Shown piece by piece: positions 5,650-64,000 of a stretch of 64,000 bases of DNA. Position 1 is the first letter of the stretch. Every line of letters starts with the position of its first letter. Source of the stretch: Wenyingzhuangia gilva (GTDB lineage Bacteria; Bacteroidota; Bacteroidia; Flavobacteriales; Flavobacteriaceae). The notes under the pieces were generated by a model, which searched no databases, was not told where the DNA came from, and was given only the letters and a program-made list of their open reading frames with translations. The position numbers and the translations under genes were made by a program. The DNA lies in contig NZ_JAUMIT010000006.1 in assembly GCF_030519655.1 (NCBI RefSeq), forward strand, positions 186,001 through 250,000, written 5' to 3'.

Positions 5650-5810
5650 TTTTAGAACTGTGTGTTTGTCAAATCTTGTCATTTTTGTTTTTTGAATGAA
5701 TATGATAGGTATTGACATTGATTGATATTATAAAAACGAATGGCTTCTATTAGTTTTGAAGAAAGAGCCATCGTGTTCACAACAAAAAATATCAATTAAA
5801 TTTTTTATAC

Positions 5811-8804: not shown

Positions 8805-8931
8805 TTTTAGTGATGTTTATTATGTAAGAATACCTGTCTTTAATTACTTAGTAGTTTTGGTAATTATGGGTGGATATTGTTTTTTATAATGATGTTAAAA
8901 TGAACTAACTAATGACTAAATAAAAAGAGAT

Positions 8932-43386: not shown

Positions 43387-46300
43387 ATGGAGAAACTTAA
43401 ACTTTTATTATTAGCCTTAGTGCTATGTTTAACCACAACTTCATGGTCACAGGAAAAAGTGACGGGAGTTATAACAGACGCATATAGCATGCCTATACCT
43501 GGAGCCAATGTTATTATCAAAGGTACCTCCAAAGGAACCATTACAGATTTTGATGGTAATTATGAGTTGATGGTTAACAAAGGAGAAATTTTAGAAATAT
43601 CTTATATAGGTTACAAAACAAAGGAGATTACCTATAATGGAGAGTCTAAATTAAATGCAACTTTAGAAGAAACAAATACCCAGTTAGATGAAGTTGTTGT
43701 TGTTGGGTACGGTAAAGTAAAAAGAAAAGACGTTACTGGGGCTGTTGCTTCAATGAACTCTGAAGCTTTAGAAAAAACAAACAAAGTAGATGCTGTTTCA
43801 GCATTACAAGGACAAGCACCAGGGGTGGTAATTCAACGTACAGACAACAAGCCTGGTTCAGGAGGATTTAATATTCGTATTCGTGGAGCTAGTACTATTA
43901 ACTCCAATGATTCCAATGGTTTTAATCCTGGTCAAAACCCATTGTTTATTGTTGATGGAATTTTTGTTGATGACATTTCTTTTTTAAATCCAGCAGATAT
44001 AGAAAGAATGGATGTTCTTAAAGATGCCTCTGCTACGGCAATTTATGGGTCAAGAGGTAGTAGTGGTGTTGTTCTGATTGAAACTAAAAAAGGGAAATCA
44101 GGGAAACTTAAAATTAACTACAGTAATTATGTAGGGTTTAAACAAGCTTATCATTTGCCACCAATGTTTAATGCAAATCAATACGTACAATTTGTAAAAG
44201 AAGCAGCTGTAGGAAATGAGTTTTCTAAAACAAATGGAGATCTTAATTACAGAAGTGAAGATGTGGTGTTATCAGATTACTTTGATTCTGAAGAGCTACA
44301 AAATATAGCTGATGGAGTTGATACAGATTGGATAGATCTTATTCTTCACAATGGTTTTCAAACCAATCATACTCTTAATTTAACAGGAGGAACAGATCAA
44401 ACTAATTATGCATTAGGTTTGGCTTATACGTCTGATGAAGGTAATGTTAAAGGAGAAGATTTTGAAAGATATAATATTAGAGGGACTATTAGTAGTGATC
44501 TTACTAAATGGTTAAATGTTAGTACCAATAGTTATATAACCGTTGCTACTCAAAACGCGGGTAGTTTTGAGGCTTTAAGAAGCGCTTATCGATTAAAACC
44601 TATAGGTTCTGCATACAACGATGATGGATCATTAAAATTCTTTCCCATAGCTAAAGAAACTCAGATTTCTAATCCCCTATTTGAATCAGACAATATTACC
44701 AAAGAAACCAAGTATTTGCAATACATAGGAAATTTTGCTGTAAAACTTACACCTATTGAAGGGCTTACTGTTACGTCTAAATTTTCTCCAAACATTAAAT
44801 ACTCTAGGTATGGAGAGTACCGTGGATTGTATTCTAAATCCGTAAATGCTAATCCAGCTAACAGAAGAGCTCAGGTAGACAACTCTAACTATTATTCATA
44901 TTCTTGGGATAATATTTTTAATTATAAATTAGAAAAAGGGATTCATACTTTAGATATTACTGGGGTTTTCTCAAGATTTATGGAGCAAAAAGAAATGTAT
45001 TCAGCTCAGGTAAGAAACTTTACAACAGATGATTATTTATTTTACAACCAAGGAGCTGGTTTAAATATTAATAATGTATCAAGTTCATTCTCAAAACAAA
45101 CGTTAGAGTCTTATACTGCAAGGGTTAATTATGGTTTGATGGATAAATATTTATTAACTGTTACAGGTAGATATGATGGAGCTTCAGTTTTATCAGATAA
45201 AAACAAATGGGCGTTTTTCCCTTCTATAGCCTTGGCTTGGAAAATGGATGAAGAGGATTTTATGCAATCACAAAATGTTTTAACTACTTCTAAAGTTAGA
45301 TTAAGTTACGGACAAACAGGAAATAACGGTCAAGGAGGTGGATTATCACCATTAGGTTCTCAATCTTTGTTAGGTTCTAGTGCTACTTATATAAATGATT
45401 CAGCTTTGTCAACAGCCTATATTACTGGTTTGGCAAATGAAAATTTAACTTGGGAAAGAACAACAGAATTAAATTTAGGTTTTGATTTTGGATTCTTAAA
45501 CAATAGAATTAATGGATCAATTGATGTTTATAACAGAAAAAACACAGATATTATTTTTCAACTACCATTACAATTAGTGACAGGGTATGACAATACTTAT
45601 AAAAATATTGGAGAGTCCTCAAATAAAGGAATTGAAATTGGTTTGAACTCAACCAACATCAATACAGGTGATTTTAAATGGACCACCAACTTAAATTTTG
45701 CCTCAAATAAAAACAATTTAGATAAGTTATATAATAATGTTGAGGAAATTAATTTTAATGTAAGTGGAACAAACCTTATTCATAAAGTAGGAGAATCTAT
45801 AGGTTCTATATATGATTATGAATTTGTTGGTATTTGGCAACTTGATGAGGCTGCCGAAGCTGCTTCATATGGTCAACGTCCAGGTCAAGTAAGAGTAAAA
45901 GATATTAATAACGATGGTCAAATTACGCCAGAAGATAGAAAAGTAATCGGTCAAGTAACTCCTAAATGGACAGGAGGAATTACCAACACTTTTGATTATA
46001 AAGATTTCGATTTTTCATTCTTTGTTAATATTAGTCAAGGAAACAAGATGATGAGTAATTTTCATAACAGTATGTATGCCTATGATAATGAACCTTCACA
46101 AGCATTTAATGGGTATGATACAGATTACTGGACCCCAACAAATCCAACAAACAATTGGTATCAGCCAGGAAATGGAGGAACTTATCAAGGAGCTATTAAG
46201 TATAAAGATATTTCTTTTGTAAAAGTTGGATACATGACTTTAGGTTACTCTATTCCATCAAAATTATTAGAGAAATTTAAAATAGGAAGTTTAAGATTCT

Positions 46301-46431
46301 ATACGACGGTTCAAAACCCTTTCATTTTTACAGATTATGATGGTTGGGATCCTGAGAATGCAGGAAGAAACCAATGGGGAGCAGCATTTATGTCACGCAC
46401 ATATATGGCAGGACTTAACTTAAACTTTTAA
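43387..46431 (+). CDS. SusC-like TonB-dependent receptor (first pair)
   Basis: This is the outer-membrane importer of oligosaccharides, working with the SusD lipoprotein as a lid and powered by TonB. The signal peptide ends at about residue 22 (TSWSQ). It is followed by a CarboxypepD_reg-like domain (about 23-100, VTGVITDAYSMPIPGANV), the TonB-box region near DEVVVVGYG, the plug domain (about 110-235, with IRIRGAST, PLFIVDGI and KDASATAIYGSRGSSGVVLI) and a 22-strand barrel ending in NLNF with C-terminal Phe. There is no STN domain, so no direct anti-sigma signalling is expected; the HTCS at 51874 is the likely regulator. It is a close paralogue of the SusC at 58949. susD follows after 22 bases. 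Confidence 0.96.
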   Translation: MEKLKLLLLALVLCLTTTSWSQEKVTGVITDAYSMPIPGANVIIKGTSKGTITDFDGNYELMVNKGEILEISYIGYKTKEITYNGESKLNATLEETNTQLDEVVVVGYGKVKRKDVTGAVASMNSEALEKTNKVDAVSALQGQAPGVVIQRTDNKPGSGGFNIRIRGASTINSNDSNGFNPGQNPLFIVDGIFVDDISFLNPADIERMDVLKDASATAIYGSRGSSGVVLIETKKGKSGKLKINYSNYVGFKQAYHLPPMFNANQYVQFVKEAAVGNEFSKTNGDLNYRSEDVVLSDYFDSEELQNIADGVDTDWIDLILHNGFQTNHTLNLTGGTDQTNYALGLAYTSDEGNVKGEDFERYNIRGTISSDLTKWLNVSTNSYITVATQNAGSFEALRSAYRLKPIGSAYNDDGSLKFFPIAKETQISNPLFESDNITKETKYLQYIGNFAVKLTPIEGLTVTSKFSPNIKYSRYGEYRGLYSKSVNANPANRRAQVDNSNYYSYSWDNIFNYKLEKGIHTLDITGVFSRFMEQKEMYSAQVRNFTTDDYLFYNQGAGLNINNVSSSFSKQTLESYTARVNYGLMDKYLLTVTGRYDGASVLSDKNKWAFFPSIALAWKMDEEDFMQSQNVLTTSKVRLSYGQTGNNGQGGGLSPLGSQSLLGSSATYINDSALSTAYITGLANENLTWERTTELNLGFDFGFLNNRINGSIDVYNRKNTDIIFQLPLQLVTGYDNTYKNIGESSNKGIEIGLNSTNINTGDFKWTTNLNFASNKNNLDKLYNNVEEINFNVSGTNLIHKVGESIGSIYDYEFVGIWQLDEAAEAASYGQRPGQVRVKDINNDGQITPEDRKVIGQVTPKWTGGITNTFDYKDFDFSFFVNISQGNKMMSNFHNSMYAYDNEPSQAFNGYDTDYWTPTNPTNNWYQPGNGGTYQGAIKYKDISFVKVGYMTLGYSIPSKLLEKFKIGSLRFYTTVQNPFIFTDYDGWDPENAGRNQWGAAFMSRTYMAGLNLNF

Positions 46432-46453
46432 TCATTAATTAAAATTTAGAAAG

Positions 46454-48088
46454 ATGAAATATATTAATAAAACAATATTTACCATTCTTCTTGCAGCAGG
46501 GGCAATCAGTTCAAGTTGTGAAAGTTATCTTGAAGAAGAAAATTATACAGCAGTATCATTAGAGTCTGCAAATAAAAGTTCAGATATTTTTGACCAATTG
46601 GTAGGGTCAGTATATGAAAGAGCTAGAGAAACCACTACATATTACCAACCAGAAATGATGTATGCGTTAGAAGATGTAGGAACAGACATTGTAACAAGAG
46701 GTGCTATTTTATCAGGAACAGATCCAATTAATGACTATGTTAACTTTAACTCAACAAACAATGTTGTAAGAGTATATTGGGGAAATCAATATAAAGTAAT
46801 AGCATCAGCAAATTTGGCTATAGACAATGCCGTTAATATTCAAGGTTTAGAAGAGTCTGCAAAAAATACTGGTATTGGAGAAGCAAAATTTTTTAGAGCT
46901 TTGAGTTACTTTAATTTAGTAGAGAATTTTGGAGGAGTCCCTTTAATTATAAATCAAGTAACTCCTGCCGATACAGAGATTAAGTATTCTCGTAGTACAG
47001 AAGAACAAGTCTATACTCAAATATTAAAAGACCTTAATGAGGCTTTATTGGCAGTAGATGAAACTCCTGATGATTATGGAAGAGTTTCTAAAGACGCAGT
47101 AAGACATATTATGTCTAAAGTTTTATTAACAAGAGCTTATAAATCATTTGCAGATGTTAATGACTTTACTGAAGCGGCAGCTTTGGCAGAAACTGTGATT
47201 GCTAACCATGATTTGGTTGCTACTTTTCCAGATTTGATTGATATCAATAATCAACGAAACTCAGAAGTTGTTTTTTCTTATTTATTTGGTAGTGATCCTG
47301 TAAGTAGAGGATGGGGGAACTCAAGACATCAGTTATATAAGTTTGATTACTTTAATTATCCAGGAATGACTAGAGGTAATAAAGGTATTGGACCAGCTCC
47401 AACTCCATTTTTTTATTCATTGTTTGGCGAAGATGACGAAAGAGCAGAAGCAACCTATAGAAGAGCTATTTATGCTGAAAAAAATTATGTTAAAAATATA
47501 GCAGGGACAGATGTAACTGTAGTTGCAGGTGATACAGCTATTTATTTTCCTAAAACAGCTTGGTCTCAAACCGCTATTGATGCAGCACGTTATAAGGTTA
47601 TCAATCCAGGTACCTATTTTGAAAACGATGGGATTACATCTGTTCACTATCCAATGTTTAAAAAGTTTGATGATCCATCAACTCCTTTTGCATATACAGA
47701 TCAAGAGTCAGCAGGACAAAGAGATATGGTGATGATGAGAAGTGGAGAAGCTTATTTAATTGCAGCAGAAGCTTATTTAGGAGCATCAAACCCAACAACA
47801 GCAGCAGCGAGATTAACTACATTAAGAGCCAGAGCTGGTTTAACTACTCCAGTACTTCCAACAGAAGTTACCCTTGATTTTATTTTAGATGAAAGAGCTA
47901 GAGAACTGGTTGGAGAAGTAAATAGATGGATGGACTTAAAAAGAACAGGAAAATTGATAGAAAGAACACTGATGCATAATCCACATGCTAAGTTTAATAA
48001 TGCATTAAATGCTAAAAACCTATTAAGACCAATTCCTCAAGTTGAAATTGACAATTCTGGAGGAAATATTACACAGAACCCAATTTAG
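46454..48088 (+). CDS. SusD/RagB-like surface glycan-binding lipoprotein (first pair)
   Basis: This surface lipoprotein captures the glycan and closes over SusC. The lipidated Cys is at residue 22 (AISSSC), and the acidic residues just after it (ESYLEEE) fit surface export. The helical SusD fold is visible: EAKFFRALSYFNLVENFGGVPL, later SGEAYLIAAEAYLGASN with TPR-like repeats, and the C-terminal DERARELVGEVNRWMDLKRT. The final third is almost identical in sequence to the SusD at 62013, while the middle differs more. The gene is followed by a short stem-loop at 48141-48160. Confidence 0.95.
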   Translation: MKYINKTIFTILLAAGAISSSCESYLEEENYTAVSLESANKSSDIFDQLVGSVYERARETTTYYQPEMMYALEDVGTDIVTRGAILSGTDPINDYVNFNSTNNVVRVYWGNQYKVIASANLAIDNAVNIQGLEESAKNTGIGEAKFFRALSYFNLVENFGGVPLIINQVTPADTEIKYSRSTEEQVYTQILKDLNEALLAVDETPDDYGRVSKDAVRHIMSKVLLTRAYKSFADVNDFTEAAALAETVIANHDLVATFPDLIDINNQRNSEVVFSYLFGSDPVSRGWGNSRHQLYKFDYFNYPGMTRGNKGIGPAPTPFFYSLFGEDDERAEATYRRAIYAEKNYVKNIAGTDVTVVAGDTAIYFPKTAWSQTAIDAARYKVINPGTYFENDGITSVHYPMFKKFDDPSTPFAYTDQESAGQRDMVMMRSGEAYLIAAEAYLGASNPTTAAARLTTLRARAGLTTPVLPTEVTLDFILDERARELVGEVNRWMDLKRTGKLIERTLMHNPHAKFNNALNAKNLLRPIPQVEIDNSGGNITQNPI

Positions 48089-48140
48089 CATAAAGATATT
48101 TTATTTGAGTTTTATTTAGTTTAAGTTTTGTTAGATACAG

Positions 48141-48160
48141 GCAGGTAAGTAATTGCCTGC
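48141..48160 (+). promoter_or_regulatory. Stem-loop after susD (first copy)
   Basis: GCAGGT and GCCTGC pair over 6 bp (one T-G) around an 8-base loop, with a T-rich stretch downstream. The same element lies at the same place after the second susD. It may act as a partial terminator or as a 3' stabiliser that sets SusC/D levels above those of the downstream enzymes. Confidence 0.6.
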
Positions 48161-48324
48161 TTGTATTTCTTAAATAGAACAACATGTTTTTTTTAGAGGT
48201 GTGTATGGTAAAGAATATTGTGTTCTTTTTTTCATTCTCGTAACATTAAAAACAATTAAAAAGCCACAAGTCTAATATTTCATTATGTCACCTTGAATGT
48301 TAGATGAATATTTAAAAGAGAAAA

Positions 48325-50559
48325 ATGAATAGAATTTTTAAAAAAATTACATATTTACTACTTGTTTCCTTCTTGATTCTTTCCTGCGGAAATAAGGAAA
48401 AAGAAATAAAAGAATTAAGTCCATCTGAATTATTGATATCTAGAGTTCTACCTAATTATTCAGAGAATTTTGAGGTAGAGATTGATAGTCTGTTAGAGAA
48501 CGATTGGTTTGAGATTGTTTCTAAGGGAGATAAAATATTGTTGCGCGGAAACAATGGTGTTTCTATTGCCTCAGCCTTATATTATTATTTAAAAGAATAT
48601 GCACATTGCCAAATTACGTGGAATGGAACGAATTTAAATTTACCAGAAAACTTACCAAAAGTACCTACCCTTATTCATAAAAAGACCCCATATGAGTATC
48701 GTTATTATTTAAATTACTGTACGTTTAATTACACGATGAGTTGGTGGGATTGGGAACGTTGGGAAAAAGAGATTGATTGGATGGCTTTACATGGAATCAA
48801 CATGCCTTTGGCGATTACCGGAGAAGAATCTATCTGGGATGAAGTTTATAAATCTTATGGATTTACAGATGAAGACTTGAGTGGTTTTTATAGTGGACCT
48901 GCATATTTTTCATGGTTATGGATGGGGAATCTAGACGGTTGGGGAGGTCCTTTGACTCAGCATTGGAAAGACAGCCATAGAGAATTACAAAAGAAGATTT
49001 TACAACGTGAACGAGAGTTGGGAATGAAAACGGTTTTACCAGCTTTTACTGGTCATGTACCAGCCTCTTTTAAAAAGTTTTTTCCAGACGCGAAGTTGAA
49101 ACGAACCAACTGGGGGAATGATTTTGAAGACACCTATATTTTAGATGCGAATGATCCATTGTTTGCAGAAATTGGGAAGAAGTTTTTAGAAACCCAAGAA
49201 CGTATTTATGGAACCGATCATTTGTATTCAGCCGATACGTTTAATGAAAACACGCCACCTTCAGACGATCCTACTTATTTAAGCAATTTAAGTAGTAAAG
49301 TTTATGAGGGAATGAAATCAGCCGATGCTGAAGCTGTTTGGGTGATGCAAGGATGGTTGTTTTATAGCCATAGAGAATTTTGGAAAGCCCCACAAATCAA
49401 AGGATTGTTAGCTCCAGTACCAGATGATAAAATGATCATTTTAGACTTGGCGAGTGAAATAGAACCTATTTGGAAAAGGACAGAAGCGTTTTATGGAAAA
49501 CAATGGATTTGGAACATGTTACACAGTTTTGGAGGAAATATTAGCATGTTTGGAAGAATAGAAACTGTTGCCGATGAACCAGCCAAGGCTTTAAAAGATC
49601 CAAATTCAGGAAAGTTAAAAGGAATTGGACTTACTATGGAATCTATAGAACAAAATCCTGTTTTATATGAATTGATGACCGACAATACCTGGCGAGATAC
49701 TCCTATTGATTTAAAAGATTGGTTAGAACAATATACCACAAACAGATACGGTAAAGAAAATAAACAATTGATCAAAGCATGGGATGTTTTAGTTCAGACA
49801 GCTTATAACGGAGAAACCATTCGTGATGGAGCAGAAAGTATCATTGTAGCCCGACCTACATTTGAAGGATATAGAAGATGGGCACGAACCAAGTTGAATT
49901 ATGCTCCAGCAGATTTATTACCTGCTTGGGACTTGTTTGTGTCAGCCATTCCAAATCATCAACATTCAGATGGATTTGAATATGATTTGGTAGATGTTAC
50001 CCGTCAAGTATTGGCTAATTATGCATTGCCCTTACAACAACAAATTACAGTTGCTTATCAAGAAAATAACAAAGAAGCCTTTGACAAGTATAGTACAGAG
50101 TTCATTACTTTGATAGAAGACATGGACAAACTACTAGCCACTAGAAAAGACTTTTTACTAGGACCATGGATAGCCGATGCCAGAGCATGGGGAGAGACAG
50201 AATCCGAAAAAGCCTTGTATGAACAAAATGCAAGAGATTTGATTACGCTTTGGGGAGGAGCAGACAATAGACTACATGAGTATAGCAACCGCCAATGGAG
50301 TGGCTTGTTTAATGACTTTTACAAACCAAGATGGGAACAATTCTTTGCCGCAGTTAAACAAGACTGGAAACACTTTGATCAAGAAGCGTTTGATGAAGAA
50401 ATCAAACAATGGGAATGGAATTGGGTAACGTCTAGAAAAGACTTTCCGATTGAAGCCACAGGAAGTGCTAGTGAAATAGTACAAGAATTACACACCAAGT
50501 ATAGAGATCTCATTATTCCTGTAACAGAAAAGATGAGTCCTATTGACTACAATTACTAG
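48325..50559 (+). CDS. Alpha-N-acetylglucosaminidase, GH89 family, lipoprotein
   Basis: An exo-enzyme that removes terminal alpha-linked GlcNAc. It is the bacterial counterpart of lysosomal NAGLU. Lipid-anchored via Cys21 (FLILSC). The N-terminal domain (about 25-120) precedes the catalytic barrel with PYEYRYYLNYCTFNYTMSWW, LHGINMPLAITGEESIW, and SADTFNENTPPS with acid/base Glu308. The nucleophile is Glu439 in GLTMESIEQN. The C-terminal helical domain reaches residue 744. Family members need an acetylated amino group and do not act on free alpha-glucosaminides. The next gene, an HGSNAT/NagX-like acetyltransferase, starts 3 bases after the stop, so the two are translationally coupled. Confidence 0.95.
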   Translation: MNRIFKKITYLLLVSFLILSCGNKEKEIKELSPSELLISRVLPNYSENFEVEIDSLLENDWFEIVSKGDKILLRGNNGVSIASALYYYLKEYAHCQITWNGTNLNLPENLPKVPTLIHKKTPYEYRYYLNYCTFNYTMSWWDWERWEKEIDWMALHGINMPLAITGEESIWDEVYKSYGFTDEDLSGFYSGPAYFSWLWMGNLDGWGGPLTQHWKDSHRELQKKILQRERELGMKTVLPAFTGHVPASFKKFFPDAKLKRTNWGNDFEDTYILDANDPLFAEIGKKFLETQERIYGTDHLYSADTFNENTPPSDDPTYLSNLSSKVYEGMKSADAEAVWVMQGWLFYSHREFWKAPQIKGLLAPVPDDKMIILDLASEIEPIWKRTEAFYGKQWIWNMLHSFGGNISMFGRIETVADEPAKALKDPNSGKLKGIGLTMESIEQNPVLYELMTDNTWRDTPIDLKDWLEQYTTNRYGKENKQLIKAWDVLVQTAYNGETIRDGAESIIVARPTFEGYRRWARTKLNYAPADLLPAWDLFVSAIPNHQHSDGFEYDLVDVTRQVLANYALPLQQQITVAYQENNKEAFDKYSTEFITLIEDMDKLLATRKDFLLGPWIADARAWGETESEKALYEQNARDLITLWGGADNRLHEYSNRQWSGLFNDFYKPRWEQFFAAVKQDWKHFDQEAFDEEIKQWEWNWVTSRKDFPIEATGSASEIVQELHTKYRDLIIPVTEKMSPIDYNY

Positions 50560-50562
50560 CAT

Positions 50563-51702
50563 ATGAAAGAAGCGATATTAAAAAAAACAAATCGGTTTTT
50601 GTCTTTAGATGTATTTAGAGGGTTGACGATTTGTTTGATGATTGTGGTAAACACCCCAGGAACAGGAGCAAAGTTATATCCATATTTGGTACATGCTCAT
50701 TGGTTTGGATTTACGTTGGCCGATTTGGTTTTTCCATCGTTTTTATTTGCGATGGGAAATGCGATGAGTTTTTCGATGACCAAATTAAAAGATGCTCCCT
50801 CAGTAGTATTTTGGAAAAAAGTATTCAAACGTACGGTGATTATCTTTTTGTTAGGATATTTAATGTATTGGTTCCCGTTTTTTAGACAAGGAGCTGATGG
50901 ATGGGAATTAAAACCTATTTCCGAGACACGTGTAATGGGTGTTTTACAACGTATTGCCATTTGTTATTTTATAACCTCTTTACTTTTTTATTATTTAAAA
51001 GAAAAAACAGTATTACTACTCTCAGCCATGATTTTAATCTGTTATTGGGAGATATTGTATTTGTTTGGAACCACAGGATCAGAATTAGAGATGGCTACCA
51101 ATGCGATAACCCGCTTAGACTTAACGATTTTAGGAGAAGGGCATATTTACAAAAGAGATAGCATTCCGTTTGATCCAGAAGGGATCTTAAGTACGTTACC
51201 TTCTGTGGTGAATGTAATAGGAGGATATTTGGCAGGAAAGTTTATTCAACAAAAAGGGAAGAGTTTTGAAGGGATTTCAAAATTATTGATAGCAGGATTT
51301 TTATTATCGGCGTTGGCACTTTGGTGGGATTTGGTTTTCCCGATGAGTAAAAAGTTATGGACGAGTCCCTTTGTGTTACATACGGTAGGGATAGATTTAT
51401 CTGTAATGGCGATATTGATTTATTTTATAGAGTTAAAAAACACAAGAAAAGGAACAGAGTTCTTTAATATTTTTGGAAAGAATCCGATGTTTATTTATTT
51501 GTTTTCAGAATTGTTTTACATCACTTTAAGAATGATACCGACAAGTTCAGGCTTAGATGTTTTTGAATGGGTGAGTGAGAAGATTTTCCAGAGACTCTTT
51601 CCTGGGAGTTTTGGAGCGTTTGTAACGGCCATTGTTTTTATGCTGCTTTGTTGGTCAATAGGTTGGTGGTTAAACAAGAAAAAAATCTATATTAAAATTT
51701 AG
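50563..51702 (+). CDS. HGSNAT/NagX-like membrane N-acetyltransferase (DUF5009-type)
   Basis: A polytopic inner-membrane protein of 379 residues with about 10-11 hydrophobic segments. The N-terminus RFLSLDVFRGLTICLMIVVN and then HAHWFGFTLADLVFPSF are hallmarks of the transmembrane glucosaminide N-acetyltransferase family. His44 stands at the position of the catalytic His of human HGSNAT. The family carries acetyl groups from cytosolic acetyl-CoA across the membrane to the amino group of a terminal alpha-glucosaminide. It is coupled to GH89 by a 3-base gap, which supports a joint role: it would make the GlcNAc that GH89 removes. The C-terminus is basic (NKKKIYIKI). The acceptor is not known from sequence. 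Confidence 0.88.
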   Translation: MKEAILKKTNRFLSLDVFRGLTICLMIVVNTPGTGAKLYPYLVHAHWFGFTLADLVFPSFLFAMGNAMSFSMTKLKDAPSVVFWKKVFKRTVIIFLLGYLMYWFPFFRQGADGWELKPISETRVMGVLQRIAICYFITSLLFYYLKEKTVLLLSAMILICYWEILYLFGTTGSELEMATNAITRLDLTILGEGHIYKRDSIPFDPEGILSTLPSVVNVIGGYLAGKFIQQKGKSFEGISKLLIAGFLLSALALWWDLVFPMSKKLWTSPFVLHTVGIDLSVMAILIYFIELKNTRKGTEFFNIFGKNPMFIYLFSELFYITLRMIPTSSGLDVFEWVSEKIFQRLFPGSFGAFVTAIVFMLLCWSIGWWLNKKKIYIKI

Positions 51703-51873
51703 GAAGTAAATAAATTAGATCATTTGAAAAAAATTAAAAAGAGAAAGAATAAGTGGCATTCAAAGCTTAAATAAATCTGTTATATATCATTAAATAGACC
51801 TATCAATAAGCATCTTTTTATATGACAAATCCGTTTATATTAGCAGCTCATCAAATTAAAATGAATTATTTAA

Positions 51874-55911: not shown

Positions 55912-55988
55912 ATTCTTAATCACCGTTTTTATGTTAATACTTATTTAAGATATTCTCTATAGTATCATTATGGTGACGGAAATATAGT

Positions 55989-56020
55989 AAAACACGATGT
56001 TTCTAGTACACCGTGTTTTT
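55989..56020. terminator. Terminator between HTCS and symporter (convergent)
   Basis: A stem of 12 positions with one A-C mismatch (outer arm AAAACACG at 55989-55996 with CGTGTTTT at 56012-56019, inner TGT with ACA) is followed by T on the + side. It lies between convergent genes and can serve both. Confidence 0.7.
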
Positions 56021-56080
56021 AAATTTGCATATATCTGAAATCAATAGATAAAGTAATTTCTAAAATACAATACTGTTTTT

Positions 56081-57652
56081 TTAGGATAACAAAATATAGA
56101 TAAGAATTGTTAAAAAGACTAATATTACTCCTGCTATATTCACTTTAGACCATGATTTTTCCTCTGTTCCTTTATCCATTTCAGGATGGTCTTCAGCTGT
56201 TGGAAATAATTTAGAAACTAAAAACATGATGATAAAGTTTAGCACAAACTCAATTCCCCATAAATGCACAAAATGAATGTCTAGCTGAAGAATAAAAGTG
56301 GTTAGGATGTAAAATACAAATCCAAAAAACAAACCAGCTTTGGCTCCTTTGGTATTGATTTGTTTAAAAAAGATTCCAGCAATAATAATAGAAGAAATAG
56401 GAATAAAAAAGACACCGTTTAATTGTTGTAATAATTGATACAGCCCTTCGGGAGCATAGGCAACCATTGGAGCTACAGCAATGGCTATGATTGCTAGTAC
56501 AACAGATGAAATTTTACCATATTTTACCAAATTACTATCCGATACATTTTTGTTGATATTTTTTTTGTAAATGTCCAAACAAAAAATGGTGCTTGCAGAG
56601 TTTAGTACACTATTAAAAGTACTCAATACGGCTCCTAAAATAACGGCAGCAAAAAATCCATATAAATAAGTAGGCAATACTTTTTTTACCAAAAGAGGAT
56701 AGATTAAATCAGGAGTATCGTAATATTTATCTTGGAAATAGTAAAAAGAAATCAAACCAGGAAGGACAATAATAATAGGAACAAAAAGTTTTAGAACCCC
56801 TGTGTAAATCAATCCTTTTTGAGCTTCAACTAAATTTTTAGCACCAAAAGCTCTCTGAACAATGGCTTGATTCATTCCCCAAAAATACAACTGATTGATC
56901 ATTAAACCTGTGAACAAAACTGAAAAAGGAAGTACAGAATCGGGTTTTCCAATAATATCAAATTTATCAGGGGCAAAATTATATACAGTGCTTAATCCAC
57001 TAAAAAAATCTCCATGACCAATTTGAAATAATGCAATAACAGGAATTAACAAACCACCTAACATCAATCCAACTCCATTTAAAGAATCTGAATATGCCAC
57101 GGCTTTTAATCCTCCAAAAATGGCGTATAAAGAACCTATAATTCCAATTACCAAAACAGTATATATTAATGACTCTTCTTTGCTGATGTTAAACATTACA
57201 GAAAAATCAAAAACACTTTCAATATTTATAGCACCAGAATATAATACAATTGGTAAAAGGGTAATTACAAAAGATGACATCAGTAAAAAAGCAACGATAG
57301 ATCTAATAGCACCATCAAATCTTTTTTCTAAAAATTCTGGAATGGTGGTTAGCCCCATTTTAATAAATTTTGGAATAAAAAAGATGGCGGCAATTACCAA
57401 AGCAATGGCCGAAGTTACTTCCCATGCAATAACAATAATTCCGTTTTTATAAGAACTACCATTCATTCCTATTAAATGTTCTGTAGAAATATTGGTTAAA
57501 ATCATAGATCCCGCTATAATGGGACCTGTTAAACTTTTACCAGCTAAAAAGTAACCTTTAGAGGTAGTAAACTTGTCTTTTCGGAGTTTGTAAGTGGTAT
57601 AAAAAATGACAAATAGGGTAAAACCAAAAAATCCTAAGTAGGTAAATAGCAT
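56081..57652 (-). CDS. Sodium/solute symporter (SSS/SGLT family)
   Basis: An inner-membrane sodium-coupled importer of 523 residues with 13-14 hydrophobic segments in the LeuT-like fold. Family features are GYFLAGKSLTGPIIAGSMI in helix 1, the NISTEHLIGMNGSSYKNG stretch, TTIPEFLEKRFDGAIRS (the conserved TxPEFLxxRF motif), and GLKAVAYSDSLNGVGLMLGG. Its relatives carry glucose, galactose, myo-inositol or sialic acid. The gene starts 21 bases after the stop of the inositol oxygenase gene on the same strand, which makes inositol or a linked sugar the best guess for cargo. Specificity cannot be read from sequence alone. Confidence 0.88.
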   Translation of the reverse strand: MLFTYLGFFGFTLFVIFYTTYKLRKDKFTTSKGYFLAGKSLTGPIIAGSMILTNISTEHLIGMNGSSYKNGIIVIAWEVTSAIALVIAAIFFIPKFIKMGLTTIPEFLEKRFDGAIRSIVAFLLMSSFVITLLPIVLYSGAINIESVFDFSVMFNISKEESLIYTVLVIGIIGSLYAIFGGLKAVAYSDSLNGVGLMLGGLLIPVIALFQIGHGDFFSGLSTVYNFAPDKFDIIGKPDSVLPFSVLFTGLMINQLYFWGMNQAIVQRAFGAKNLVEAQKGLIYTGVLKLFVPIIIVLPGLISFYYFQDKYYDTPDLIYPLLVKKVLPTYLYGFFAAVILGAVLSTFNSVLNSASTIFCLDIYKKNINKNVSDSNLVKYGKISSVVLAIIAIAVAPMVAYAPEGLYQLLQQLNGVFFIPISSIIIAGIFFKQINTKGAKAGLFFGFVFYILTTFILQLDIHFVHLWGIEFVLNFIIMFLVSKLFPTAEDHPEMDKGTEEKSWSKVNIAGVILVFLTILIYILLS

Positions 57653-57673
57653 GGTAAAAGTTTTTAGTTAGGG

Positions 57674-58540
57674 TTAAAATTTTAATACTTCGGGCAGATA
57701 TTTAGAAACCAAGGCTTCATAATAAGGTCTTAAAGCTTTTACGTCTGGTTTTACAGGAGCTTTGGTATATAAATCGTACGGATTGAATTTTTTCACCCAT
57801 TCAAACATTTCAATATCCTTTTCATTCATTAAATGACGATAGTCTTCTTCTCTGTGTTGAGAATAAAAAGAATGATAACGAATCATATATAAAGCAGGTT
57901 CAGGCAAATAGTCTTTTAGTATTTGATATAAATATTCATCATGACCCCAGCTCATTTTTACATTGTCTAGACCACAATTAGGAGTATAGACTCCATATTT
58001 GGTGTTATATCTTTCATCTTTGCTGTCCGGATTTTGTTCAAAAAATTCAGGATAAACAATTTTATCAGAAAATTTACACCCTACAGGAAAAGTATCACCT
58101 ACCACTGCCCATTGCGGTTCTCCAAACAAACAAAGCACTTTACCTATATCGTGTAAAAAACCAGTTAATACAAACCAATCTGGATGTCCATCTGCTCTAA
58201 TAGCTTCAGAGGTTTGCAATAAGTGTTGAAGTTGGTCTAAGTCAATATCAGGATCACTATCATCAACCAAAGTGTTTAAGAAGTCTACAGCTTCCCATAA
58301 TGACATTTCTTTTTTGTCAAACTTTAAAAATTCTTCTTCTTTTTTACATACAAAATCATAAGTCTGATTGATGTGGTTGATGCGATAAAATTCTTTAACA
58401 GTATCTACTCTTTCAGAATCTACATAATTTCTAAAAGCCTCTTTTTCTTTTGTAGGTGTTTCAGGGTCAGGATAGCGTTCTATTAAGTTTTCTTCCCAAT
58501 CGTCAATATTGTCCATCGGATTATTGATATTATTTTTCAT
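57674..58540 (-). CDS. Myo-inositol oxygenase (MIOX family)
   Basis: A cytosolic di-iron oxygenase that cleaves the ring of myo-inositol with O2 to give D-glucuronate. The 288-residue HD-domain protein is strongly like animal [58 protein letters not shown] and [15 protein letters not shown]. All six iron ligands are in place: His106, His130, Asp131, His200, His223 and Asp256, equivalent to human His98, His123, Asp124, His194, His220 and Asp253. No signal peptide is present. It is the first gene of a two-gene unit with the symporter and is divergent from the second susC. D-glucuronate would enter the uronate pathway, which is not in this window. Confidence 0.94.
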
Positions 58541-58948
58541 TGTATTTAAAATTTTGGTTAAAAGATTTGTGTTAAGATGATAACTAAACTCTTTGATATT
58601 AAGGTTTGGTAAAGAGTTAGATTGTTTTTTTCTATTGATTATAAATCAGTAAAATATAGCAATCCAAAGTAATAATGTTCTTTGTTTGTTATATGGATAT
58701 TTTATGCAAAAGTATGGATGCTTTGTTTTTTTATTGATAATAAACTAATAAAAAAACTATTTATTTGTGATTTTGATAATTTAAAAACATAGTTATTGAG
58801 CAATTGCTGATTCTCCATGTTTTTGAATAAAATGTCCATTTTAAAAAAAGAAAACTCGGTTAATTTTACGAAATGCTTACAATACTTATTGATTGGTTGA
58901 TTATAATTTAAAGTAAGTGTAAAACAATTATTAACTAAACAAAATAAA
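58541..58948. other. Divergent regulatory region between inositol oxygenase and second SusC
   Basis: This region of 408 bases has no supported gene and must hold promoters for both directions. The last bases before susC (58925-58942) repeat the leader AATTATTAACTAAACAAA of the first susC. A TACTTTTG on the - strand (58707-58714) fits the -7 consensus loosely, without a matching -33. No other structure was seen. Confidence 0.55.
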
Positions 58949-61900
58949 ATGGAGAAACTTAAACTTTTAATGATAGCCGTGGTGCTATGTTTTTCATCAA
59001 CTTTATGGGCACAAAGTAAAGTGACAGGAGTTGTAACGGATGCGAATGATATTCCAGTTCCTGGAGCTAATATCATTATCAAAGGAACCTCAAAAGGAAC
59101 AATAGCAGATTTTGATGGTAACTTTGAGATTACTGCTAGCAATGGAGACGTTATAGCAGTTTCATATGTAGGGTACACAACTAAAGAGATAGCTTACACT
59201 GGGCAAGCTAAATTAAGTGTAAAATTAGAACAAACTAATACAGAATTAGATGAAGTGGTAATTGTAGGATACGGTACTGTTAAAAGGAAAGACGTAACAG
59301 GATCCGTAGCTTCAATGGATGCAGAACAGATACAGCAAACAAATAAAGTAGATGCTGTGTCAGCTCTTCAAGGTCAAGCACCTGGGGTTGTGGTTCAACG
59401 TACAGATAACAAGCCAGGGGGTGGAGGTTTTAATATCCGTATTCGTGGAGCGAGTTCTATTAATGTAAATGAAAATTCTTCTTCTTCAAATGGAGGTTTT
59501 AATCCAGGACAAAATCCTTTATTTATTGTAGATGGAATTTTTGTGGACGATATTTCTTTCTTAAATCCAGCGGATATCAGCAGAATGGATATTTTAAAAG
59601 ATGCTTCTGCAACGGCTATTTATGGATCAAGAGGTAGTAATGGTGTTGTGTTGATTGAAACTAAGGGAGGTAAAAAAGGAGTTTTAAAAGTTGACTACAG
59701 TAATTATGTAGGTTTTAAACAAGCATATCACTTGCCTTCTGTTTTTGATGGTTCTAGTTATGTAGATTTTGTTAAAGATGCCGTAGTAGGTACTCAGTTT
59801 GCTTCAGGAAACTATGCTTACCGTAAAAGTGATGTAGTTTTGTCTGATTATTTTGATGCAGAGGAATTACAAAATGTAGCGGATGGAGTGAGTACTGATT
59901 GGGTTGATTTAATGCTTAAAAATGGACTACAAACCAATCATACAATTAATATGAGTGGAGGAACAGATAAAACTATTTATTCTGTTGGTTTGGCATATAC
60001 CAAAGATGAAGGTACGGCTAGAGGTGAAGATTTTACTAGATATAACATTAGAGGAACTTTAAGTAGTGATTTAACAAAATGGTTAAATGTAAGTGTTAGT
60101 AATTATATTACCAATGCGATCCAAAACTCTGGAAGTTGGGAAGGTTTTAGGAGTGCTTACAGATTAAAGCCTATTGGTCGTCCATACGATGAAAATGGAG
60201 ATTTAAAGTTTTTCCCTACAGCAAAAGAAACTCAAATTACCAACCCGTTGTTTGAGGCTGATAATGTAACAAGAGAAACTAAATATTTACAATACCTTGG
60301 TGATTTTGCCTTAAAAGTAACTCCTATTGAGGGGTTGACACTTACTTCTAAGTTTTCTCCAAATATTAAATATTCAAGATATGGAGAGTATAGAGGGTTG
60401 TATTCAAAATCTGTTAGTGCAAATCCAGCAAACAGAAGAGCTCAGGTAAATAATGATAATTATTTTTCATATTCATGGGATAATATTTTGAATTATAAAT
60501 TCGAAACTGGAATTCATGCTATTGATTTTACTGGAGTATTCTCAAGATTTTCACAACGTTCAGAAGGATACTATACACAAGTAAGAAACTTTACAACAGA
60601 TGATTATTCATTCTACAATTTAGGGGCTGGATTAAGTGTTAATGATGTATCTAGTGGTTTTTCTAAGCAAACATTAGAATCTTACACAGCTAGAGTTAAC
60701 TACAGCTTAATGGATAAATACTTAATCACTTTAACAGGTAGATATGATGGAGCTTCTAAATTAGCAGAAGGGAATAAATGGGCGTTTTTCCCATCAGCAG
60801 CTTTTGCATGGAAAATATCTGAAGAAGATTTTATGAAATCTCAAAATGTATTAACCAATGCAAAACTTAGAGTAAGTTATGGTCAAACAGGAAATACAGG
60901 AGAAGGGTTACAACCTTTAGGATCACAATCATTATTAGATCCTAGTGCAACCAATTTGGGAGATGCTGCGTATCCATCTCTTTACGTAGGTGGTTTGGCG
61001 AATAAAAATCTTAAATGGGAAAGAACAGCAGAAGTAAACGTTGGTTTCGATTTTGGATTATTAAACAATAGAATTAATGGATCTGTAGATGTATATCACA
61101 GAAAAAATACAGACCTTATTTTATATACACCTTTATCTAATCTTACAGGATTTCCAGGGGTTTTTGAAAATATTGGAGAGTCTAGTAACAAAGGAATTGA
61201 AATTGGTTTAAATACAACAAACATCAATTCAGGAGGGTTTAAATGGACAACCAACTTTAACTTCGCGTCAAATAAAAACAATGTAGATAAGTTATACGGA
61301 GGAAAAGATATTTTATTTGGAAATTATATTACCAGAGTAGGACAGCCAGTTGGAGCTATTTATGATTATGAATTTGCAGGGATTTGGCAATTAGATGAGG
61401 AAGCTGAGGCTTTATCATACGAACAAAAACCAGGTCAAGTAAAAGTAACAGATGTAAATAAGGATGGAAAAATAACTCCAGAAGATAGAAAAATAATTGG
61501 ACAAACTGCTCCTAAATGGACAGGTGGTATTACCAATACAATGAACTATAAAGATTTTGATTTTTCATTCATGGTAAACATCAGTCAAGGAAACACCATG
61601 AGAAGTAATTTCCATAGTAACTATGCTTGGGGATGGCAAGAACAACCAAACAGAGTGTTTAACGGTTATGATGTTGATTACTGGACACCTGAAAATCAAT
61701 CTAACGATTATAATCAACCTGGTAACCCTGGTCCTTACGGTTGGGCAATACAATACAAAGATGTTTCTTTTGTTAAAGTTGGATATGTGACCTTAGGATA
61801 CAAGTTCCCTTCAAAATTCTTAGATAAAATAAACGTAAAAAGTTTAAGAATTTATGGAACAGTACAAAATCCATTCATTTTTACTGATTACGATGGTTGG

Positions 61901-61984
61901 GATCCTGAAAATGCATCAAGAAACCAATGGGGAGCAGCATTTATGTCACGTACATTCATGACAGGTCTTAATTTAAGCTTCTAA
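58949..61984 (+). CDS. SusC-like TonB-dependent receptor (second pair)
   Basis: This outer-membrane importer is a close paralogue of the SusC at 43387 across the full length (1011 and 1014 residues) and begins with the same MEKLKLL signal peptide. Signal cleavage is after WAQ at about residue 22. It is followed by a CarboxypepD_reg-like domain, the TonB-box region DEVVIVGYG, the plug with IRIRGASS, PLFIVDGI and KDASATAIYGSRGSNGVV, and a barrel ending in NLSF. The plug has a Ser-rich insertion (NENSSSSNGG) absent from copy 1. Differences are spread over the barrel, including the region about 650-700 and 775-790, where loop changes could alter ligand choice. susD follows after 28 bases. Confidence 0.96.
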   Translation: MEKLKLLMIAVVLCFSSTLWAQSKVTGVVTDANDIPVPGANIIIKGTSKGTIADFDGNFEITASNGDVIAVSYVGYTTKEIAYTGQAKLSVKLEQTNTELDEVVIVGYGTVKRKDVTGSVASMDAEQIQQTNKVDAVSALQGQAPGVVVQRTDNKPGGGGFNIRIRGASSINVNENSSSSNGGFNPGQNPLFIVDGIFVDDISFLNPADISRMDILKDASATAIYGSRGSNGVVLIETKGGKKGVLKVDYSNYVGFKQAYHLPSVFDGSSYVDFVKDAVVGTQFASGNYAYRKSDVVLSDYFDAEELQNVADGVSTDWVDLMLKNGLQTNHTINMSGGTDKTIYSVGLAYTKDEGTARGEDFTRYNIRGTLSSDLTKWLNVSVSNYITNAIQNSGSWEGFRSAYRLKPIGRPYDENGDLKFFPTAKETQITNPLFEADNVTRETKYLQYLGDFALKVTPIEGLTLTSKFSPNIKYSRYGEYRGLYSKSVSANPANRRAQVNNDNYFSYSWDNILNYKFETGIHAIDFTGVFSRFSQRSEGYYTQVRNFTTDDYSFYNLGAGLSVNDVSSGFSKQTLESYTARVNYSLMDKYLITLTGRYDGASKLAEGNKWAFFPSAAFAWKISEEDFMKSQNVLTNAKLRVSYGQTGNTGEGLQPLGSQSLLDPSATNLGDAAYPSLYVGGLANKNLKWERTAEVNVGFDFGLLNNRINGSVDVYHRKNTDLILYTPLSNLTGFPGVFENIGESSNKGIEIGLNTTNINSGGFKWTTNFNFASNKNNVDKLYGGKDILFGNYITRVGQPVGAIYDYEFAGIWQLDEEAEALSYEQKPGQVKVTDVNKDGKITPEDRKIIGQTAPKWTGGITNTMNYKDFDFSFMVNISQGNTMRSNFHSNYAWGWQEQPNRVFNGYDVDYWTPENQSNDYNQPGNPGPYGWAIQYKDVSFVKVGYVTLGYKFPSKFLDKINVKSLRIYGTVQNPFIFTDYDGWDPENASRNQWGAAFMSRTFMTGLNLSF

Positions 61985-62012
61985 TTTATTGTTGAATTAA
62001 ACTATAGAAAAA

Positions 62013-63632
62013 ATGAGAAAAATTAATTATAAAATAATAACATTACTTCTAGCGGCAAGTTTGTTAAATACAAGTTGTGAGAGTTATTTAGAAGAGGAAA
62101 ATAATACTAAACTTAATATTGATGATGCCGATGCAAATACTTATAAACAGTTAGTTGCAACCGTATATGAAAGAGCAAGAGAAACAACTACACATTATGC
62201 TCCAGATTTGTATTATGTTTTAGAGGATTTAGGGACAGATATCGTTACTCGAGGAAACGCTGTTGTTGGAACTAGTGATCTTAATGACTATGTCAACTTC
62301 AACTCTCAAAATTTGGCTATCGGTGTGTATTGGTCTAATCAATACAAAATCATTTCAGCAGCAAATATTGTTATTGACAATGCTGATGGAATTGACGGTT
62401 TAGAAGAAGCAGACAAAAATATGGGAGTAGCAGAGTCTAAGTTTTTTAGAGCGATGTCTTATTTTCAGTTGGTTGAGAATTTTGGGGGTGTTCCTTTGGT
62501 TTTAAATCAAATTACCACGGCTGAAAGAGATTTTACAAGAGCTAGTGAAGAAGATGTTTATACCCAAATTATACAAGATTTAGAAGATGCTTTGGCTGGA
62601 GTAGATCAAACTCCTAATAAATACGGTAGAGTTTCTAAAGATGCAGTAAGACATTTGTTATCAAAAGTATTGTTAACTAGAGCTTATAAGCCGTTTGCGG
62701 GTTCAACTGATTTCACAGATGCAGCTGCTTTGGCAGAAACAGTAATCTCTAATCACGCTTTAGTTGGGTCTTTTGAAAGCTTAGTAAGTATTGAAAATCA
62801 GCGTAATTCAGAGGTAATCTTTTCTTACTTATTTGGAAGCAATTCTGTAAGTAGAGGATGGGGTAATTCAAGACATCAGATGTATAAATTTAGATTTTTT
62901 GATTATCCTGGATTGACTAGAACAGTTAAAGGTTTAGGAGCAATGCCAACACCTTTTTACTATTCACTTTTTGAAGACGATGATGAAAGAGCAGCAGCTA
63001 CTTTTGCTAGAGTTATTTACGCTACAGAAGATTACACTGCTACTGTTGGTGGAGCTACTGTAAATGTAATGGCGGGTGACACTGCGATGTATTTTCCTAA
63101 AACAGCATGGTCTCAATCAGCAATCAATGCTGTTAGATATAGAGTTGTAAACCCAGGTACTTACTTTACAAACGATGGAGTTACGGATGTACATTATCCT
63201 CAGTTTAAAAAATTTGATGACCCTAATGTTCCGTTTAGACAACCAGATACAGAATCTGTAGGAGAGAGAGATATGGTGATGATGAGAAGTGGAGAAGCTT
63301 ATTTAATTGCGGCAGAAGCATATTTAGGAGCTTCAAATCCAACGACTGCTGCAGCTCGTTTAACTACTTTAAGATCTAGAGCTGGATTAACTACTCCAGT
63401 ACTTCCAACAGAAGTAACATTGGATTTTATTCTTGACGAAAGAGCAAGAGAGTTAACAGGAGAAGTGAATAGATGGATGGATTTAAAAAGAACAGGAAAG
63501 CTAATAGAGCGTACATTATTGCATAATCCACATGCGAAATTGAATAATGCTTTAAATGCTAAAAATTTATTGAGACCTATTCCTCAATATGAGATAGATA
63601 ACAGTAATGGTCTTACTCAAAATCCATTATAA
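62013..63632 (+). CDS. SusD/RagB-like surface glycan-binding lipoprotein (second pair)
   Basis: Partner lipoprotein of the preceding SusC. Lipidated Cys at about residue 22 (LLNTSC) is followed by ESYLEEE as in copy 1. The fold markers are VAESKFFRAMSYFQLVENFGG, FSYLFGSNSVSRGWGNSRHQ, SGEAYLIAAEAYLGASN and DERARELTGEVNRWMDL. Compared with copy 1 the C-terminal part is nearly unchanged, even at the DNA level in stretches of about 40 bases (near 63270 and 47725). The N-terminal and middle parts, which shape the glycan site, differ more. The stem-loop at 63701-63720 follows. Confidence 0.95.
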   Translation: MRKINYKIITLLLAASLLNTSCESYLEEENNTKLNIDDADANTYKQLVATVYERARETTTHYAPDLYYVLEDLGTDIVTRGNAVVGTSDLNDYVNFNSQNLAIGVYWSNQYKIISAANIVIDNADGIDGLEEADKNMGVAESKFFRAMSYFQLVENFGGVPLVLNQITTAERDFTRASEEDVYTQIIQDLEDALAGVDQTPNKYGRVSKDAVRHLLSKVLLTRAYKPFAGSTDFTDAAALAETVISNHALVGSFESLVSIENQRNSEVIFSYLFGSNSVSRGWGNSRHQMYKFRFFDYPGLTRTVKGLGAMPTPFYYSLFEDDDERAAATFARVIYATEDYTATVGGATVNVMAGDTAMYFPKTAWSQSAINAVRYRVVNPGTYFTNDGVTDVHYPQFKKFDDPNVPFRQPDTESVGERDMVMMRSGEAYLIAAEAYLGASNPTTAAARLTTLRSRAGLTTPVLPTEVTLDFILDERARELTGEVNRWMDLKRTGKLIERTLLHNPHAKLNNALNAKNLLRPIPQYEIDNSNGLTQNPL

Positions 63633-63700
63633 GAGTTAATAAAACATAGAGACTTATAGTCTTTATTATTTGAGTTAGTTTAAAGTTAGTTTAGATATAG

Positions 63701-63720
63701 GCAGGTGAGCAATTGCCTGC
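63701..63720 (+). promoter_or_regulatory. Stem-loop after susD (second copy)
   Basis: GCAGGTGAGC-AATTGCCTGC differs from the copy at 48141 by two bases, both in the loop; the 6-bp stem is unchanged. It lies 68 bases after susD; the first lies 52 bases after. Confidence 0.6.
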
Positions 63721-63792
63721 TTATATTCTTTAAAGAAATGATTTGATTGTTATTATTAAGTATTTACATCAAAACATATTACAAAAAATCCT

Positions 63793-64000
63793 ATGGAAGT
63801 AAAGCCATTTAAATTAAATAGAATCCATATTTTAAAAAATGCTTGGATTGGATTGATTTTCCTTTTTCTAATCTCTTGTAAAGAAGAAATAAAGAAAACG
63901 GTTGTCAAAGAAAATTATGTAGACAAAGTATATCCTTTGTTGGATACAGAAAATTCAAGATGGTTTTTCTTTACTTCTGCAAGTCGTCCATTTGGAATGG
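63793..64000 (+). CDS. GH92-like alpha-mannosidase lipoprotein, N-terminal part (cut by window end)
   Basis: Only the first 69 codons are inside the window. The start ATG at 63793 gives a signal with a hydrophobic stretch WIGLIFLFLISC and lipidated Cys29. The mature part begins KEEIKKTVVKENYVDKV, then YPLLDTENSRWFFFTSASR and PFGM. A V-x-P-L/F...S/T-R...PFGM pattern near the N-terminus is typical of GH92, calcium-dependent exo-alpha-mannosidases. The catalytic residues lie beyond the window, so the family call is based on the N-terminal motif and the PUL context. It takes the same place after susD 2 as GH89 does after susD 1. Confidence 0.7.
   Translation, partial: MEVKPFKLNRIHILKNAWIGLIFLFLISCKEEIKKTVVKENYVDKVYPLLDTENSRWFFFTSASRPFGM

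Follow-up and report, generated by a model that had tools for sequence, protein, structure and literature searches.

Polysaccharide utilization loci (PULs) of Bacteroidota are characterized by SusC/SusD pairs, glycosidases and hybrid two-component system (HTCS) regulators. Here we analyse a gene cluster in Wenyingzhuangia gilva that occupies positions 43,387 to 64,000 of a 64,000-nucleotide stretch (the window, G000:C30:186001-250000) of a 3.35 Mb genome and most likely continues past the end of contig C30 onto contig C23. Two adjacent SusC/SusD pairs with co-located carbohydrate-active enzymes (CAZymes) and a regulator make the cluster a PUL by anatomy. It differs from described PULs in adding PI-PLC, a phosphoesterase, myo-inositol oxygenase (MIOX) and a symporter, and its predicted substrate, a glycolipid head with a cyclitol core, would be of a new kind.

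The PUSI system of Flavobacterium johnsoniae likewise combines a Ca-dependent PI-PLC, a calcineurin-like phosphodiesterase and SusCD, but is induced by phosphate depletion, has an ECF (extracytoplasmic function) sigma factor and is described without CAZymes or MIOX (PMC8115612). The W. gilva cluster falls outside the PUSI type, since it has CAZymes and HTCS regulators as well as PI-PLC and a phosphoesterase. In Botrytis cinerea, the secreted phospholipase C GIPC-PLC1 cleaves the glycosyl inositol phosphorylceramide (GIPC) of plants, setting inositol phosphate glycans free; this is a single fungal enzyme (PMC11496612), whereas the bacterial cluster would also dismantle and consume the head. The acetyltransferase and the GH89 enzyme of the cluster have sequence kin in the Protein Data Bank (PDB) in human lysosomal HGSNAT and NAGLU. 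These human enzymes acetylate terminal α-glucosamine (GlcN) across the membrane and then cleave α-N-acetylglucosamine (GlcNAc), treating a GlcN/GlcNAc-α1,4-glucuronate-type bond in heparan. The difference here is the setting, a predicted bacterial glycolipid locus with no sulfatases among the scanned genes (those of the cluster on C30 and C23, the gap between them being unread). The cluster's MIOX resembles the animal enzyme, with a 308.6-bit match to PDB 2huo and the metal ligands kept, and differs in being bacterial and paired with a symporter inside a PUL. A paper on inositol lipids of Bacteroides thetaiotaomicron is mainly concerned with synthesis (PMC9246714). Among the matches listed in our literature search, with most subscription journals and bioRxiv beyond its scope, no paper described a bacterial GIPC locus or a MIOX within a PUL, in line with an earlier note on this DNA that knew of no PUL with such logic.

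A predicted locus for the headgroup of plant-type GIPC

We propose, with a probability of about 0.75, that the cluster is a PUL-type locus acting on the headgroup of inositol phospho-sphingolipids that contain glucuronate, of the plant GIPC type. GIPC is described as GlcNAc(α1-4)GlcA(α1-2)inositol-1-O-phosphorylceramide, with GlcN, mannose, galactose and arabinose further out (PMC8099651), and the title of a reference in PMC11496612 names α-Man-(1-4)-α-GlcA-(1-2)-myo-inositol from rose cells. GIPC cores begin with glucosamine, mannose or glucuronic acid (PMC6151786), and only the glucuronic-acid-type core needs a GH115 enzyme. At family level, the cluster offers an enzyme for each bond of Gal/Man-GlcN(Ac)-GlcA-Ins-P-Cer: GH2, GH92, the NagX-like acetyltransferase, GH89, GH115, PI-PLC, the phosphoesterase and MIOX. 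Gene content, gene order, conservation and the catalytic residues of several enzymes are observed, and all substrates are predicted from them.

Several of these genes stand beyond the window. Contig C30 extends 11 kb past it with GH92, GH28, GH28, GH2 (LacZ type), GH92 and a second GH89, of which only the first 92 codons precede the contig end. The only PI-PLC-C1 of the genome is located at the very start of contig C23 (E 1e-124), which opens with PI-PLC-C1 (358 aa), GH115 (983 aa), a metallophosphoesterase (622 aa), a second HTCS (1352 aa) and a major facilitator superfamily (MFS) transporter; the GH115 is full-length, with a catalytic domain (5e-132) and GH115_C. Because window positions 48382-48604 in the first GH89 recur with 98% identity at the end of C30, and C23 opens with an exact copy of 51590-51712 (123 bases) from the end of the first NagX-like gene, C30 most likely continues into C23, and the assembly would have broken at another GH89-NagX pair, almost identical to the first, that lies in the gap. 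W. marina DSM 100572 carries on a single contig the order SusC, SusD, GH92, GH28, GH28, GH2, GH92, GH89, NagX, PI-PLC, GH115, phosphoesterase and HTCS, with symporter and MIOX sharing one strand just ahead of this string and a MIOX 98% identical to that of the window genome. The first SusC-SusD-GH89-NagX block of the window has no counterpart at the corresponding place in W. marina and is therefore an extra copy in the window genome. In total the cluster has two HTCS genes and eight for carbohydrate enzymes, of which one is truncated. The earlier note had advised looking past position 64000 for α-mannosidases and phospholipase C or phosphodiesterase genes; further GH92 α-mannosidases, PI-PLC, the phosphoesterase and GH115 are there, and the last three, together with their conservation, support the glycosyl-inositol lipid headgroup that it had offered as one option.

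In the proposed pathway, SusCD and lipoproteins would bind and import the lipid or its head, and PI-PLC-C1 would split inositol phosphate from ceramide. GH2 would take off β-galactose, which we take to be the anomer in GIPC, and GH92 would take off α-mannose. The membrane acetyltransferase would N-acetylate terminal GlcN to GlcNAc in the periplasm, enabling GH89 to cleave GlcNAc-α1,4-GlcA, after which GH115, or in some relatives probably GH28, would cleave GlcA-α1,2-inositol. The metallophosphoesterase would take off phosphate, the symporter would import inositol, and MIOX would convert inositol to glucuronate, merging with the other glucuronate in the UxaC/UxuA route; in Flavobacterium, an added GH51 arabinofuranosidase would serve for arabinose. 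Much of this stepwise logic was anticipated by the earlier note, whose mannose removal, GlcN acetylation, GH89 cleavage and inositol import and oxidation are all supported. Its placement of the GH89 cut at GlcNAc-inositol is unlikely, because the GlcNAc of plant GIPC sits on glucuronate (PMC8099651), and GH89 would most likely release GlcNAc from glucuronate instead.

Enzyme assignments

Comparison with solved structures supports several of the gene labels. GH89 scores 553 bits against 4xwh and 458 bits against 2vc9, presumably human NAGLU and a clostridial GH89, and both glutamates at the positions that we take to be catalytic are aligned. The acetyltransferase reaches 32.7 bits for HGSNAT_cat (PF07786; gathering cut-off 22) and aligns with HGSNAT 8vkj, including the histidine of the HAxWxG motif that we take to be catalytic in HGSNAT. 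It scores 160.2 bits for NCBIfam NagX (NF046061), below the cut-off of 480, and NagX is the sole weak gene label. MIOX matches PF05153 with 376 bits, above cut-off, and its six metal ligands, assigned from what we presume to be their positions in mouse MIOX (2huo), are present and invariant across 22 aligned sequences. GH92a aligns with 2wvx with the acid glutamate and the Asp-Glu-Asp motif kept; the idea that GH92a lacks the catalytic acid on account of a GNQP motif was dropped, as BT3990 (2wvx) has GNQP too and the acid glutamate aligns. The catalytic residues of the mouse, human and BT3990 enzymes used in these comparisons are our assumption. The PDB kin of GH115 carry the names of xylan α-1,2-glucuronidases, and the two GH28 proteins are 55% identical to each other.

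For the phosphoesterase, a single-sequence PDB search gave no match, while a profile search matched Lmo2642. Its predicted model (mean pLDDT 69) best resembles Lmo2642, then SMPDL3A/B, which are acid sphingomyelinase-like, and weakly wheat purple acid phytase; judged from the model, its substrate may be either the lipid phosphodiester or inositol phosphate. Lipoprotein-like N-termini were recognized by eye in GH92a, GH89, PI-PLC and the phosphoesterase, and MIOX has no signal; a lipoprotein pattern scan flagged only GH92a, the second GH89 and PI-PLC.

Pfam confirms every gene that the earlier note had named in the window, including the GH92-like start, which is a true GH92 (Table 1). GH89 and the NagX-like gene are separated by 3 bases and the symporter and MIOX by 21 bases, and MIOX is single-copy in the genome. 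A distinct pectin-like locus with HTCS, GH2 and rhamnogalacturonan lyase family 11 lies at the window start (1939-11586), and a second GH115 is found about 11 kb ahead of the window (G000:C30:173693-174724).

Table 1. Genes of the cluster that lie in the window, with window coordinates.
Feature	Position	Strand	Basis and remarks
SusC-like TonB-dependent transporter, copy 1	43387..46431	+	Pfam; 73% identity with copy 2
SusD-like protein, copy 1	46454..48088	+	Pfam; 71% identity with copy 2
GH89/NAGLU α-N-acetylglucosaminidase	48325..50559	+	Pfam, E 9e-147
HGSNAT/NagX-like membrane acetyltransferase	50563..51702	+	Pfam HGSNAT_cat, E 7e-8, passes Pfam cut-off
HTCS 1, hybrid two-component regulator	51874..55911	+	Pfam
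Sodium:solute symporter, proposed myo-inositol importer	56081..57652	-	Pfam
MIOX, myo-inositol oxygenase	57674..58540	-	Pfam, E 9e-113
SusC-like transporter, copy 2, common to W. marina	58949..61984	+	Pfam
SusD-like protein, copy 2	62013..63632	+	Pfam
GH92a, start (771 aa in full)	63793..64000	+	Pfam, E 9e-136; remainder in L002 = G000:C30:249700-261076

Conservation around MIOX in Bacteroidota

We surveyed 395 Bacteroidota genomes for matches over family cut-offs. MIOX matches that fell short of the cut-off (in 34 of 63 genomes) were left out, as were five PI-PLC rows that passed the Pfam cut-off but were weak (E 2e-16 to 7e-10), the latter reducing PI-PLC from 29 to 27 genomes. MIOX occurs in 29 genomes and GH89 in 26, with both in 15 (Fisher P 8e-13, kinship uncorrected). 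The two genes lie at most 27 kb apart in 12 of these 15 genomes and far apart or on separate contigs in the other three; the 12 cover four genera (the window genome, eight genomes of g51 (Flavobacterium), two of g77 and one of g79), with eight of them from one genus. This pattern speaks against a chance presence of MIOX, which the earlier note had kept as an alternative, and the association of GH89, NagX and MIOX that it had suggested seeking elsewhere does recur in other genomes. PI-PLC (27 strong genomes) and MIOX occur together in 11 of the 395 (Fisher P 3e-7, kinship uncorrected).

Five further genomes of the window genome's own genus, one of them 85% complete, have no MIOX and no PI-PLC over cut-off. 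UxaC is present in 6 of 7 members of this genus, the 85%-complete G005 being the exception, and UxuA in 6 of 6 examined, with both in the window genome. The locus is thus patchy in the genus: it is accessory, and its product would enter a glucuronate route of general use. Genome G156 shows the string SusCD, GH89, NagX, GH28, MIOX, UxuA, in which GH28 is the sole neighbour that might free glucuronate from inositol, suggesting a possible α-glucuronidase activity for this protein. The G012 MIOX match (G012:C3:86117-86866) contains two TGA codons beside a symporter split into two short frames (L053/L054), possibly decay or sequence error; PI-PLC, GH92 and NagX (78%) are its neighbours. The MIOX locus of G008 carries two α-L-fucosidase family genes (L047:7390-10111, minus strand), with kin in Cellulophaga, Maribacter and Mariniflexile, and these may mark a differently capped head.

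In named genomes, we read up to 10 kb on each side of MIOX in the best 80 of at least 591 MIOX stretches. The symporter is found within this distance in 68 of the 80 loci (directly adjoining in 46), followed by HTCS (30), GH92 (25), the phosphoesterase (24), GH28 (21), SusC (19), SusD (18), GH2 and NagX (17 each), GH115 and a 597-aa protein or its kin (13 each), GH51 (12, one a 22% match), UxuA (11), PI-PLC (10), a NagB-PIG-L fusion (5, all Flavobacterium) and GH89 (1). The direct order PI-PLC, GH115, phosphoesterase, HTCS, MIOX, symporter recurs in seven loci of four genera, namely Cellulophaga baltica, four Maribacter, one Mariniflexile and one Flavobacterium metagenome-assembled genome. F. 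pokkalii carries GH92, one extra gene, GH89, NagX, PI-PLC, GH115, phosphoesterase and HTCS in a string as in the window genome, and Aestuariibaculum carries GH115, NagX, GH89, GH92, GH2, GH92, SusDC, UxuA and MIOX.

Glycan or phospho genes number at least two in 42 of the 80 loci, one in a single locus (L182) and none in 37. The last group (Cyclobacterium, Algoriphagus, Chitinophaga and others) has the symporter in 27 of 37 loci and SusC in 2 of 37, and reads as plain inositol use. Of the 42 glycan-class loci, 38 carry at least one of GH115, GH28 and the 597-aa protein no more than 10 kb from MIOX, and three more (L195, L215, L217) have a GH115 further out, the exception being L149, a 10.5 kb contig. 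We drew 24 of the 42 glycan-class and 18 of the 37 plain-MIOX loci and, with L117 and L176 left out, compared 23 glycan-class with 17 plain-MIOX genomes. Because class membership depends on the neighbouring genes, the closeness of PI-PLC follows in part from how the classes were drawn, while GH89 lies at most 10 kb from MIOX in only 1 of 80 loci. Nearness in the plain class was ruled out by coordinates, contig comparison or reading of the locus. GH89 is present in 9 of 23 glycan-class genomes, in 8 of them within 24 kb on the MIOX contig, and in 4 of 17 plain-MIOX genomes, in none of them near MIOX. PI-PLC is present in 20 of 23 glycan-class genomes, in 18 within 22 kb on the MIOX contig. Plant- or root-derived names, which are weak evidence, occur among hosts with glycan genes (F. 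glycines, F. pokkalii, F. panacis, Croceivirga radicis) and without them (Chitinophaga rhizophila, Adhaeribacter rhizoryzae).

Flavobacterium MIOX loci encode a protein of 597-608 aa (L116:157-1947 and L089:15106-16899, both minus strand; kin at L062:5603-7429, plus strand) that has a hydrophobic, signal-like start and matches no Pfam family and no PDB sequence. Its predicted model (mean pLDDT 66) matches uronate lyases, heparinase III among them, with helices followed by strands as in α/α-toroid glycosaminoglycan and alginate lyases, and on this model we consider the protein, with moderate confidence, a candidate new lyase family. The NagB-PIG-L fusion, a 642-aa protein joining a GlcN-6-phosphate-isomerase-like and a PIG-L deacetylase-like part (L090:8221-10149, minus strand), adjoins GH89 in G399.

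Weighing the substrate

Several observations weigh against plant-type GIPC as the substrate. The host is marine, whereas GIPC is best known from land plants; the join of C30 and C23 in the window genome is a deduction; and no ceramidase was recognized among the scanned genes. Of the 11 genomes in the 395-genome sample that have both PI-PLC and MIOX, only G258 has the two close together on one contig, the window genome being a second case if counted across the gap. GH115 is common, occurring in 56 of 395 genomes, and its presence alone was rejected as a marker for that reason; the sequence examined on either side of MIOX showed no GH115 in the g51 (Flavobacterium) genomes of this sample, whose GH89 and NagX are about 35% and 28% identical to those of the window genome. 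The two GH28 proteins are without an assigned bond, and their nearest NCBIfam families are rhamnogalacturonidases and galacturonidases, all below cut-off. PI-PLC also occurs in 15 of 17 plain-MIOX genomes, in none within 22 kb of MIOX; it was accordingly rejected as a stand-alone marker, and its position in the gene string says more than its presence. GH89 is missing from 14 of 23 glycan-class genomes, and the acetylate-and-cleave pair therefore looks like a module for one head type. The commoner core is PI-PLC, a uronate enzyme, phosphoesterase, GH92, symporter and MIOX.

Other substrates were weighed against the same genes. A glycosylphosphatidylinositol (GPI) anchor core, one of the options of the earlier note, would have its mannose stripped, its GlcN acetylated by NagX and its GlcNAc-α1,6-inositol bond cut by GH89, with PI-PLC freeing the glycan from lipid. 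Two GH92, NagX, GH89, PI-PLC and MIOX all fit this course, but GPI contains no glucuronic acid, and the cluster encodes enzymes for two sugars absent from GPI cores, glucuronate and LacZ-type β-galactose. The GH115 gene is complete, belongs to the same string and stays beside PI-PLC and MIOX in other genera, and GH2 and, in relatives, GH51 would have no role; owing to GH115 and GH2, we rejected GPI as the main target and regard it as very unlikely. Alternatively, GH115, GH2, GH28 and GH51 could act on a polysaccharide from plants or algae (glucuronoxylan, arabinogalactan or the side chains of pectin), and MIOX and PI-PLC would then be chance neighbours. The GH28 matches are pectin enzymes, in a family that includes endo-polygalacturonases, and, as a further point against GIPC, GH115 is known to act on xylan (PMC3879575), in agreement with the PDB molecule names. 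Among the scanned genes there is no xylanase, galactanase or pectin lyase family, and the linkage of MIOX with PI-PLC, phosphoesterase and GH115 recurs from genus to genus, which leaves the polysaccharide explanation quite unlikely.

General phosphorus scavenging from inositol lipids or phytate, in the manner of PUSI and with sugar enzymes attached, has a precedent in the PI-PLC, phosphodiesterase and SusCD that F. johnsoniae induces on phosphate depletion, whose likely targets are, according to the authors, nucleic acids and the headgroups of lipids (PMC8115612). PI-PLC also adjoins the phosphoesterase in G372, a genome without MIOX over cut-off. The two HTCS and eight carbohydrate enzyme genes of the cluster point to carbon use instead, and PUSI is set apart in its description from PULs containing CAZy enzymes (PMC8115612), making phosphorus scavenging highly improbable. 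In Table 1 of that paper, the Pfam numbers of Fjoh_4172 and Fjoh_4173 seem swapped (pf00149 by the PI-PLC name, pf16670 by CpdA). Heparan- or heparosan-like chains, with NagX and GH89 acting on GlcN(Ac)-α1,4-uronate ends, draw on the kinship of both proteins with human heparan enzymes and on the lyase-fold protein of Flavobacterium relatives. The scanned genes of the cluster itself include no sulfatase, GH88 or lyase family, as the earlier note had already seen for sulfatases and lyases within the window, with the predicted lyase-like fold of the 597-aa Flavobacterium protein as a caveat. PI-PLC, GH92 and MIOX would stay unexplained, and a heparan or glycosaminoglycan utilization locus was rejected as scarcely credible.

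For plant-type GIPC, the reading that we prefer, a bolder version is tentative and on balance doubtful: a widespread Flavobacteriia pathway may use plant GIPC completely (sugar, inositol and phosphate), with GH115 and a GH28 clade as α-glucuronidases on inositol, a sphingomyelinase-like phosphoesterase and the Flavobacterium 597-aa protein as a lyase splitting hexose-α1,4-glucuronate. GIPCs are a dominant sphingolipid class of the plant plasma membrane and make up as much as 40% of total sphingolipids (PMC8099651). If GIPC is the substrate, the cluster would be a bacterial route for consuming abundant plant sphingolipids and burning the freed inositol, and the named enzymes that it offers would supply tools for cutting GIPC heads at defined bonds. 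It would also explain why MIOX, PI-PLC and a lysosome-type acetylate-then-cleave pair are found together in marine and soil bacteria.

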